A DNA stretch of 64,000 bases from Rhodospirillaceae bacterium. GTDB taxonomy: Bacteria > Pseudomonadota > Alphaproteobacteria > Rhodospirillales > JABHCV01. The translations under genes and the position numbers were made by a program. Positions 39,460 to 57,649 of this stretch are shown here, piece after piece (position 1 is the first letter of the stretch; each line of letters opens with the position of its first letter). The DNA lies in NCBI GenBank assembly GCA_014382375.1, contig JACNJU010000062.1:1-64000 (forward strand). The letters are read 5' to 3'. The notes under the pieces were generated by a model. It was given only the letters and a program-made list of their open reading frames with translations. It was not told the origin of the DNA and made no database searches.

Positions 39460-40635
39460 TTACAGCCCCATGTCAACGTCACCGGGGATCCGGGGATATA
39501 ATGGTGGCTCGTCTATATTGACGAAAGTCTCGGCGATAAAGCCGTTGAAGCTTGAGGTCATGGAATTTGAATAAGCGCCAGCCTGACCGATTTCAATCCA
39601 GTCCCCCTCACGAATACAGTTCGGAAGGTTGATTTGGCCCGGAATGCAGTCTGTTGAATCGCATGTCGGTCCGAACATTGAGAAAGGGCTGGTCTCACTT
39701 GAAACCGTTTGACCAGGACGGATTACCCGCATTGGCAACTCAATCCCGGCGGTCAGGGTTTCAGACAGGCTGTGGTAAACACCGTCATTGATATAAAGGG
39801 ACTGCTCCTTGCGCAACATGACCTGAACAACAAGGCTTGAGCCACTGGCGACAAGGCCGCGTCCGGGTTCGCACATCAACACACAATCACCGCGCAGATT
39901 GATTTCCTTTATCGTATCGGTGATGGCCGTGACGAAGTCTTCCAGTGGCGGTGGCTTGTCATTAACGTAATGGACCGGAAAGCCGCCGCCGACATCAAGA
40001 TAGTGAATGTCCACATCCGACTTATCCATAACCTGGCCCATAATGCGAATTGCCTCGGCAAAAGCTTCGGGACTTCGACATTGCGAACCAACGTGAAAAG
40101 CAAGACCCGGCTGAAAGCCTTCGGCGGCGACCCGGTTGAGAAGAGCCGGAGCTTCATCAACGGTAATCCCGAATTTTTGCGACAGGTTGTAGGCGACATT
40201 GGCCGCCGGTGTGATCACCCGCACCAGACAGACCTTACCGTCGCCACCACCGATGGCTGAGACGATTTTATCGAGCTCCCGGTGGTGATCGATGACAAAA
40301 TGATCGACCGAATAAACATCCTTGGCCGCAGCTATAGCGCTTGGTGATTTGACCGGATGCATGAAATAGCAATCTGCCTGGGGGAAATTTTCCCGGATCA
40401 AGGCGATCTCGGTTAGCGAGGCGGTATCGAAATGGCGAATACCGGCCTCGAAAAGTGGGCCCAGGACATTTAGGTCAGGGTTGCACTTGACCGCATACAA
40501 AACCCGCCCCGGAAAGGTATCCAGAAAGCGTTTGGCGTTGCGCTTCAGCTCTTCAGGGCGTAGGCAGTAAACCGGATATCCAGGCTGCAGTGCTTCGATC
40601 ATCGCATCAACAGTGGAAAAGTGCTTCAGGGGCAT
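39460..40635 (-). CDS. PLP-dependent (group IV, fold type III) ornithine/diamino acid decarboxylase
   Basis: 391 aa alanine-racemase-fold decarboxylase. The PLP lysine is in 'LYAVKCNPDLNVL', the phosphate site is 'LDVGGGFP' and 'CEPGRGLVA', and the C-terminal active-site cysteine is in 'GPTCDSTDCI'. The 'CDS' box is typical of ornithine or lysine decarboxylases of the eukaryotic type rather than LysA, so polyamine (putrescine) synthesis is the best guess. Arginine or lysine use cannot be excluded. It is upstream of hemB on the minus strand and divergent from icmF across 172 bases. Confidence 0.85.
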   Translation of the reverse strand: MPLKHFSTVDAMIEALQPGYPVYCLRPEELKRNAKRFLDTFPGRVLYAVKCNPDLNVLGPLFEAGIRHFDTASLTEIALIRENFPQADCYFMHPVKSPSAIAAAKDVYSVDHFVIDHHRELDKIVSAIGGGDGKVCLVRVITPAANVAYNLSQKFGITVDEAPALLNRVAAEGFQPGLAFHVGSQCRSPEAFAEAIRIMGQVMDKSDVDIHYLDVGGGFPVHYVNDKPPPLEDFVTAITDTIKEINLRGDCVLMCEPGRGLVASGSSLVVQVMLRKEQSLYINDGVYHSLSETLTAGIELPMRVIRPGQTVSSETSPFSMFGPTCDSTDCIPGQINLPNCIREGDWIEIGQAGAYSNSMTSSFNGFIAETFVNIDEPPLYPRIPGDVDMGL

Positions 40636-40755
40636 CTGCGTCTACTTTTTATAAAGGGACAAGTCAGTGCGATAGGTGACACTATTCCATTGCTGCTGCA
40701 AGGACGATTTTTCAACCTGATCCTTTACCATGGTTGTGTTTTATATTAAGTTGAC

Positions 40756-40773
40756 GTTTACGTTAACGTAAAC
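40756..40773. promoter_or_regulatory. perfect 18-bp palindrome upstream of icmF, probable operator
   Basis: GTTTACGTTAACGTAAAC is its own reverse complement with no spacer. It lies 34 bases before the icmF start and ~120 bases before the divergent decarboxylase gene. The core resembles the TTTACGT-AACGTAAA type of site that I recall being described for MerR-family LiuR regulators of branched-chain amino acid catabolism. That link is from memory and by inference. The position close to the gene suggests repression or MerR-style activation of icmF. Confidence 0.65.
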
Positions 40774-40807
40774 TTGTTGAAGACCCGATTTTTCAGGAGT
40801 TAAGGCC

Positions 40808-44062: not shown

Positions 44063-44109
44063 TCCTTCAAACGGGTGACATCGCAAATCCATTGGGTTTA
44101 TATAAACCC

Positions 44110-44337
44110 ATGAGCACTGATAAAAATCATGGCCGCGAAGTTCTGGTCGAAATGCATTACACCTCCGGTCGTTCGGTCAGGGTCGTTGCCATCGATCCGG
44201 TCACTGGAACAGAAGTTACCATGGTCGGTGATGCATCACGCAGCGAAGCGGAATTGAAACGCCTGGCAGCGAATAAACTTATGTATGTACTCAATAAAAA
44301 GAAAAATGCCGAAAAACCGGAAAACGACCTTTATTGA
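44110..44337 (+). CDS. small conserved protein (DUF6898-like)
   Basis: 75 aa, soluble, basic C-terminus. The sequence 'REVLVEMHYTSGRSVRVVAI' followed by 'DPVTGTEVTMVGDASRSEAE' is a small beta-rich domain that I associate with the alphaproteobacterial DUF6898 family, found near rpiB and glyA in this class. Function unknown. The ATG at 44110 is preferred to 44092. It lies between icmF and rpiB. Confidence 0.65.
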   Translation: MSTDKNHGREVLVEMHYTSGRSVRVVAIDPVTGTEVTMVGDASRSEAELKRLAANKLMYVLNKKKNAEKPENDLY

Positions 44338-56602: not shown

Positions 56603-57649
56603 GTGATTACGCGTAATTTAACGCTTTCACTTGACGCCATGGGTGGCGATAACGCCCCAGGCATGGTGGTGGATGGCATCGGCCTTGCGCTTGCACGCAT
56701 GCCGCATGTTAATTTCCTGCTGTACGGCGACGAGAAACAATTAATCCCGCTTCTTGACAAGGTTCCAGCCGTGCGCTCAATTTGTCAGGTTCGTCATACG
56801 GAAGATGTCGTCTCCAACGACGAGAAAGCCGGGGCCGCCCTGCGTTCAGGGCGTAATTCAAGCATGCGTCTGGCCATTAACGCGGTCCACGAAGGTGAAG
56901 CTGCAGGAATCGTATCAGCCGGCAATACCGGCGCCCTGATGGCAATGGCAAAATTCGTTCTGAAAACGCTTCCTGGCATTGATCGCCCGGCAATCGCTAA
57001 GAATTTCCCCACCATGCAAGGCGATTGCATCATTTTGGACCTGGGTGCCAATGTTCAGTGCGACGCTGATAATCTTGTCCAGTTCGCCGTCATGGGCGAA
57101 GCCTATGCACGCAAGGTGTTGGGCATCGAGCAACCGTCCATTGGTATCCTCAACATCGGTTCGGAAGATGTAAAAGGCCACGAGCAACTGCAACAAGCGG
57201 CGGCCATGCTTCAGGAAATCAATCTTCCCATCCGTTTCCACGGCTTTGTTGAAGGTGACGACATCACCAAAGGAACAGTAGACGTCGTCGTCACCGACGG
57301 TTTCACCGGCAATATCGCCCTGAAAACGGCGGAAGGCACCGCCCGCATGTTCAGCAACTTCCTGAAAGAAGCGATGATGAATTCGCTGCTGTCCAGAACC
57401 GGGGCTTTGCTGGCAAAAAAATCTCTTTCCAAATTCAAGGGCCGGATCGATCCCCGGCGTTACAACGGCGCCATGTTCCTTGGCCTAAACGGAATTTGCA
57501 TCAAGAGCCATGGCGGTGCCGACGCCTTTGGATTTGCCAACGCACTCGATGTCGCTGTCGATTTAATTACCGATGATCTTAATGACGTCATTAAGGAAGA
57601 CCTCTCCCATCTCGACGAGATGCATCCAGAATCCTTGATCAAACCATGA
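56603..57649 (+). CDS. plsX: phosphate acyltransferase PlsX
   Basis: Makes acyl-phosphate from acyl-ACP for phospholipid synthesis. 348 aa, normal length. Seen: '[19 protein letters not shown]', '[20 protein letters not shown]', '[11 protein letters not shown]'-type motif as '[20 protein letters not shown]' and '[20 protein letters not shown]'. The GTG at 56603 has an AAGGA site 7 bases upstream. It overlaps fabH by 4 bases, so the two are coupled. Confidence 0.96.

Follow-up and report, generated by a model that had tools for sequence, protein, structure and literature searches.

In the 64,000-nucleotide window analysed here (positions 1 to 64,000 of contig JACNJU010000062.1 from a Rhodospirillaceae bacterium), icmF is preceded by a perfectly self-complementary stretch of 18 bp, GTTTACGTTAACGTAAAC. 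This raises the questions of whether the stretch is a regulatory site, which regulator would read it and how icmF transcription would respond. An initial annotation of the locus had proposed a LiuR-type site tying icmF to the branched-chain amino acid regulon, an assignment supported by the copies found elsewhere in the genome and by conservation upstream of icmF. We conclude that a 22-bp element overlapping the palindrome is very probably a LiuR operator lying over the inferred icmF core promoter, where bound LiuR would block RNA polymerase until branched-chain amino acids are being degraded.

The icmF locus and its palindromes

The icmF product scored 1873.9 bits against NF045497 (cut-off 1500; fused B12-binding, GTPase and mutase domains) and matched PDB 4xc6, a solved fused isobutyryl-CoA mutase that we take to be the Cupriavidus metallidurans enzyme; the match covers residues 21-1084 at E=0. 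In the alignment with 4xc6, Phe589 and Gln733 fall on the positions presumed to determine substrate specificity in Cupriavidus IcmF, which were reportedly established by Jost et al. in 2015. Methylmalonyl-CoA mutase carries Tyr and Arg at the two positions, according to the available part of PMC7238569.

The palindrome indeed lies between icmF and a divergent decarboxylase gene, as first annotated, with 34 bp separating its end from the GTG start codon (Table 1). This decarboxylase accompanies icmF in 3 of 101 IcmF loci, all from one genus and including the present one. On the other side, the order icmF, small ORF, rpiB and glyA recurs in locus L015 (Rhodospirillales bacterium), whose IcmF is 74% identical, which suggests an alphaproteobacterial host. 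The small ORF 3' of icmF (44110-44337, MSTDKNHGREV...) has relatives in 14 of the 101 loci, its own included.

A sequence check verified perfect self-complementarity over all 18 bp, with the axis at 40764/40765. The view that a gapless palindrome of this length is very unlikely by chance did not hold: the window contains three perfect palindromes of at least 18 bp (40756-40773, 44093-44110 and 57578-57595), and 60 dinucleotide-preserving shuffles of the window yielded a mean of 0.25, with at least one in 14 of the 60. We therefore rejected palindrome length as an argument for function. What is improbable about 40756-40773 is its letters, not its symmetry, as matches to GTTTACGTTAACGTAAAC with up to three mismatches are expected 0.03 times per window.

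Regarding the other two palindromes, TGGGTTTATATAAACCCA at 44093-44110 starts 30 bp past icmF, its last base being the A of the ATG of the 75-aa small ORF, and has no second genomic copy when up to three mismatches are allowed. The third, CTTAATGACGTCATTAAG, lies inside ORF 56603-57649 (plsX-like by eye) and is probably a chance occurrence.

Table 1 Features of the icmF upstream region and intergenic copies of the element in the same genome
Feature	Position	Strand	Remark
Divergent PLP-dependent decarboxylase gene	39460..40635	-	Best model lysA, under its cut-off
Putative -35, TTTACC	40724..40729	+	Predicted; 17 nt before putative -10
Putative -10, TAAGTT (weak)	40747..40752	+	Predicted; overlaps left edge of operator
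30-bp block, TAAGTTGACGTTTACGTTAACGTAAACTTG	40747..40776	.	Identical in three genus members (alignment of G000, G001, G003)
Predicted LiuR operator, 22-bp element TTGACGTTTACGTTAACGTAAA	40751..40772	+	Three ACGT cores in 6-bp steps; axis 40761/40762
Perfect 18-bp palindrome	40756..40773	.	Covers middle and right ACGT of operator
AGGAG, ribosome-binding-site-like	40795..40799	+	By eye; 8 nt before GTG
icmF, fused isobutyryl-CoA mutase/GTPase, 1084 aa	40808..44062	+	NCBIfam NF045497
Intergenic copy TTGACGTTTACGTAAACGTCAA, perfect 22-bp palindrome	C141:5650-5671		Upstream of isovaleryl-CoA dehydrogenase gene
Intergenic copy TTGACGTTGACGTAAACGTAAA	C141:6975-6996		10 bp upstream of listed TTG start of MerR gene
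Intergenic copy TTGACGCTAACGTAAACGTCAA	C185:7519-7540		Between genes for an enoyl-CoA hydratase and a hotdog thioesterase

A 22-bp element centred on the middle ACGT

Read in 6-bp units, positions 40751-40772 consist of TTGACG, TTTACG, TTAACG and a closing TAAA. The 30-bp block that is identical in the three genus members is centred on the same axis as this 22-bp element, and its flanks are strongly changed in G003 and less so in G001. To compare the layout with that of other sites, we used 150 elements from which duplicates had been removed irrespective of strand. Three exact ACGT cores are present in 100 of them, and their consensus, TTGACGTTTAC/GTAAACGTCAA, is symmetric around the middle ACGT. 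Among these 100 three-core elements, 23 are perfect 22-bp palindromes, compared with 5 having a perfect left and 7 a perfect right 16-mer. In 54 the two linkers are reverse complements of each other, whereas self-complementarity was seen for 16 left and 15 right linkers. An earlier tally with some duplicate entries had given closely corresponding numbers (105 three-core elements, 25 palindromes, 5 and 7 16-mers, linker counts of 57, 16 and 15). In the 155-element set, 134 elements fit the 22-mer at up to three mismatches, and the remaining 21 were left out of the element listings.

The 18-bp palindrome, initially regarded as the operator unit, was accordingly rejected as the conserved unit in favour of a 22-bp unit around the middle ACGT. 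The predicted functional element reaches further left than those 18 bp, spanning 40751-40772, and its conserved symmetry axis is 40761/40762 and not 40764/40765, 3 bp away. Since both the tallies and the genus block centre on the middle ACGT, the perfect 18-bp palindrome most likely arises as a side effect of repeating the 6-bp unit. MerR dimers touch half-sites about one helical turn apart, a distance that suits cores spaced by 12 bp better than cores spaced by 6 bp. The symmetry of the arms is one of consensus, not of covariation: without coupling, a hand estimate from column frequencies predicts matched linkers in about 54 of 105 elements, against 57 of 105 observed. Two liuR promoters carry TTTACCTTTACGTAAAGGTAAA, in which both outer arms are altered alike; apart from these two, we found no coupling between the arms beyond the common consensus.

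Variants of the layout occur as well. Some sites, e.g. those at L063, L066 and L081, have only two ACGT cores, and this form may suffice, perhaps with an axis like that of the 18-bp palindrome. Upstream of icmF in L048 (L199, 1270-1305), between the divergent liuR and icmF genes of a Chromatiales MAG, the LiuR element is lengthened to a perfect 36-bp palindrome, CAGTATATTGACGTTTACGTAAACGTCAATATACTG (by eye). Near a LiuR homologue in L174 (1401-1450), two LiuR elements are adjacent, 34 bp apart.

Copies elsewhere in the genome and the regulator gene

We scanned the 3.3-Mb genome with the 16-bp core pattern TTKACGTNNACGTMAA, allowing up to one mismatch, and obtained six places, of which four are intergenic and two lie inside ORFs. 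The latter, C174:32262 in a flagellin-like and C190:37651 in a thioesterase-like ORF (both named by eye, one mismatch each), were set aside as coding and probably due to chance. All four intergenic copies show the three-unit 22-bp layout, the C185 copy with ACGC as its first core. Besides icmF, the intergenic matches precede genes for an isovaleryl-CoA dehydrogenase, a liuR-like MerR protein and an enoyl-CoA hydratase/thioesterase pair, the opposite of the refuting outcome named with the initial annotation, in which no further copies would lie near catabolic genes. The acyl-CoA dehydrogenase encoded behind TTGACGTTTACGTAAACGTCAA has isovaleryl-CoA dehydrogenases as its closest solved structures (best 4o5m, E 4e-204).

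The regulator had been stated to lie outside the window, and a candidate gene is indeed found on contig C141. It encodes a 129-aa MerR-family protein (C141:6575-6964) that scores 69.7 bits against PF13411 (cut-off 21.6) and 62.4 bits against PF09278 (cut-off 25.4), and stays under the cut-off of all 15 NCBIfam models listed, e.g. CueR with 61.6 versus 147.4, so that it does not count as any of these curated equivalogs for metal sensors or other MerR proteins. The copy TTGACGTTGACGTAAACGTAAA lies 13 bp from the next ATG of this gene, and two thioesterase-like ORFs followed by the isovaleryl-CoA dehydrogenase gene are located downstream. A MerR-family gene close to one for isovaleryl-CoA dehydrogenase, each preceded by a site, is the organisation known for LiuR, and we refer to the gene as liuR. 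Its product is the one LiuR-like protein of the genome at E <= 1e-20.

Conservation upstream of icmF and co-occurrence with LiuR

The second refuting outcome, loss of the site upstream of icmF in relatives, did not occur either. Our order set comprised 60 genomes including the present one, 21 of which carry icmF, defined as a match above 1000 bits (one is cut by a contig end). The site is present upstream of icmF in 18 of these 21, own genome included, and absent in G035, G051 and G026. The named set comprised 80 IcmF loci, reduced to 78 after dropping L015 and L040 with less than 150 bp upstream; the icmF start was taken as the start of the tblastn match, not as an annotated start. Within 400 bp upstream, 39 of the 78 named genomes carry the core pattern (31 without and 8 with one mismatch), and the site is missing there in the other 39. 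No further named locus was gained at exactly two mismatches within this distance (0/78), and the reversed pattern, used as a control with zero to two mismatches, was likewise found in 0/78. Beyond the 400-bp stretch, 771,646 bp of the same loci contain five clusters, and four of the five are located 0.92-1.02 kb upstream of icmF. In L046 (2926-3918; Burkholderiales) and L091 (3128-3970; Polaromonas), the two such loci inspected, a polyphosphate-kinase-2-like ORF (by eye) lies between site and icmF, an arrangement that suggests a LiuR-controlled operon.

According to their record titles, the 39 site-bearing loci belong to beta- and gammaproteobacteria, apart from one Rhodospirillales locus (L069) and two whose titles say no more than 'Proteobacteria', and comprise genera such as Cupriavidus, Massilia, Limnohabitans and Granulosicoccus as well as an Olavius symbiont. 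The site is absent from icmF loci titled actinobacteria (such as L072 and L083) or Desulfobulbus (L038 and L051), and the two Cupriavidus loci of the named set are divided, L022 having the site and L043 lacking it. Two observations concern possible misbinning: the site and left flank of L069 resemble those of the Limnohabitans loci L055 and L077, and the icmF upstream regions of G041 and G030 (L110/L111) are identical.

The site and LiuR tend to occur in the same genomes. A LiuR homologue (E <= 1e-20; 42-54% identical to the query) is encoded in 54 of the 78 named genomes, and site and homologue occur together in 37, the site alone in 2, LiuR alone in 17 and neither in 22 (Fisher p 1e-6, with no correction for kinship). 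Thus 37 of the 54 LiuR-bearing genomes have the site within 400 bp of icmF and 4 more about 1 kb upstream, while for the remaining 13, the Cupriavidus locus L043 among them, no site was found in the icmF stretch searched. Conversely, the site occurs without a LiuR match at E 1e-20 in the named L069 and L094, in G003 (67% complete) and in G041 (7% contamination). LiuR-type sites are present in 53 of 55 LiuR homologue loci (about 2-3.4 kb, from the same genomes), some being the icmF site itself, and in 8 named loci among the 101 IcmF loci liuR is adjacent to icmF and divergently oriented, and the site occupies the region between the two genes. Among the 60 order-set genomes, LiuR is found in 17 of the 21 with icmF and in 6 of the 39 without. 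Of the three icmF-bearing order genomes lacking the site, G035 and G051 have no LiuR match at E 1e-20, and the best match of G026 is 50% identical, with no site at its locus.

Promoter layout at the site

We infer the promoter geometry from sequence patterns. A generic sigma-70 promoter and terminator scan at the icmF site returned nothing, and scoring the -10 by four of six matches over 55 icmF sites gave no clear promoter peak, the top count of 12 falling at spacing 12 (the right arm of the operator), followed by 4 at 15 and 3 at 17. The following counts were made after inspecting the sequences. TTTACC or TTGACC occurs at the putative -35 offset of the window in 5 of the 18 site-bearing order genomes, counting the present one. 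More generally, TTKAC precedes the operator at -27 in 5 and at -21 in 6 of the 18, compared with 6 hits in total at the remaining offsets between -100 and -1; -27 and -21 differ by one 6-bp unit. In all 11 cases, a TAAGTT or TACGTT that overlaps the operator lies 17 nt past TTKAC. In the present genome, transcription of icmF would be expected to start near 40759, inside the operator.

A second layout emerges from the named, mostly beta- and gammaproteobacterial sites, where the left arm of the operator may double as the -35. Exactly 17 bp past the left-arm hexamer, TANNNT is found in 14 of the 38 named sites and in 13 of the 66 sites near liuR (oriented by position only), against a background of 0.9% per position beyond 20 bp; the count covered spacers from 16 bp up, and its P values are post hoc. 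Among the 38, none has TANNNT at 18-20 bp, and 23 have it at neither 16 nor 17 bp.

Activator promoters of the MerR family (MerR, CueR, SoxR) have spacers of 19-20 bp around an inverted-repeat operator of roughly 22 bp. In both layouts described here, the promoter core would have normal spacing and be covered by bound LiuR. The putative 17-bp spacing and the predicted position of the operator over the promoter core thus point to repression rather than to MerR-type activation.

Discussion

By all the sequence evidence, the element upstream of icmF appears to be a genuine LiuR operator kept across several proteobacterial groups. Building on the observed element, its copies, their conservation and the regulator gene, we infer a course of binding, repression, ligand-dependent induction and metabolic purpose as follows. 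A LiuR dimer would most likely bind the 22-bp near-palindrome centred on 40761/40762 and block RNA polymerase at icmF. During branched-chain amino acid degradation, LiuR would be released or change its contacts, so that icmF would be made together with liuR, the isovaleryl-CoA dehydrogenase and the genes for acyl-CoA processing. IcmF would then interconvert n-butyryl-CoA and the valine-derived isobutyryl-CoA, which would give access to ordinary beta-oxidation.

LiuR belongs to the MerR family, and could in principle activate icmF by untwisting the DNA of an operator placed inside a 19-20-bp spacer; the TTGACG at 40751-40756 is -35-like, and in G003 a GATAAT follows at a 19-bp spacer (by eye). 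The available part of PMC3223726 terms LiuR a MerR-family repressor. As neither G000 nor G001 retains this 19-bp spacing, and TANNNT stands at 17 bp in 14 of the 38 named sites and at 18-20 bp in none, we consider activation unlikely. It is very unlikely that the element serves another regulator with ACGT cores, such as a MerR paralogue or an acyl-CoA-responsive TetR protein. ACGT-rich palindromes are not confined to one regulator family and 2 of the 39 named site-bearing genomes lack a LiuR match, but the genome holds a single LiuR-like protein at E <= 1e-20, and the element is present both in front of the gene for that protein, 10 bp from its listed start, and in 53 of 55 LiuR loci elsewhere.

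The shared intergenic region would also allow the divergent decarboxylase gene to be the true target in place of icmF. We regard this as highly improbable, given that the decarboxylase lies beside icmF in only 3 of 101 loci of a single genus and the site goes with icmF. That the palindrome is a chance or structural feature, e.g. an RNA hairpin, serving no regulator would agree with the 0.25 perfect 18-bp palindromes expected per window and with the two further ones present; it is hardly credible in view of the 30-bp block, identical in three genus members of which one has strongly changed flanks, and because the site recurs both ahead of icmF, in 39 of the 78 named genomes, and next to genes of related function within the present genome. 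The reading as a LiuR operator over the icmF promoter is thus the one we retain.

LiuR regulons have been described in 103 genomes from 15 taxonomic groups (Table 1 of PMC5343134, as far as available). For Rhodospirillum rubrum, the available part of PMC7238569 reports an 'ILV box' at liuR, ivd and liu genes, and its authors considered it unlikely that an isobutyryl-CoA mutase operates there; among the papers listed, it is the one that names this enzyme as well as LiuR, with no tie between LiuR and icmF found in that part. Nor was a link of LiuR (or MerR) to icmF, isobutyryl-CoA mutase or methylmalonyl-CoA mutase found in the available portions of the literature searched, which excluded Kazakov et al. 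2009 and RegPrecise. A literature search on IcmF returned little, and nothing on the control of icmF. A LiuR operator at icmF in several proteobacterial groups, shared with liuR in eight cases, would tie IcmF to valine and leucine catabolism, and the site suggests that the enzyme belongs to the breakdown pathway of leucine, isoleucine and valine in many bacteria. The three-unit operator and the 17-bp promoter spacing predict that LiuR, as a member of the MerR family, works as a plain repressor. As a tentative proposal that may well not hold, icmF could be an ancient and so far unreported member of the LiuR core regulon, both in beta- and gammaproteobacteria and in the probably alphaproteobacterial order of this genome, making isobutyryl-CoA/n-butyryl-CoA interconversion a built-in B12-dependent branch of branched-chain catabolism; the three-ACGT operator would slide by one 6-bp unit relative to the promoter between lineages with repression kept, and may hold two overlapping LiuR dimers.

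Compared with known systems, the enzyme resembles the presumed Cupriavidus metallidurans IcmF (4xc6) over residues 21-1084 of 1084, with the Phe and Gln of the specificity positions kept. The predicted operator shares with the activator promoters of MerR, CueR and SoxR the regulator family and an inverted repeat of about 22 bp, but differs by its putative 17-bp instead of 19-20-bp spacing and by its position over the promoter core. In the available parts of the literature on the LiuR regulon or 'ILV box' of Proteobacteria, a MerR-family regulator likewise has sites both at the promoter of its own gene and at the gene for isovaleryl-CoA dehydrogenase, whereas icmF, unlike at the present locus, was not found among the targets (PMC3223726, PMC5343134, PMC7238569). 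To this known regulon, our analysis adds the site at icmF, corrected boundaries and symmetry axis of the element, and a proposed mode of action.
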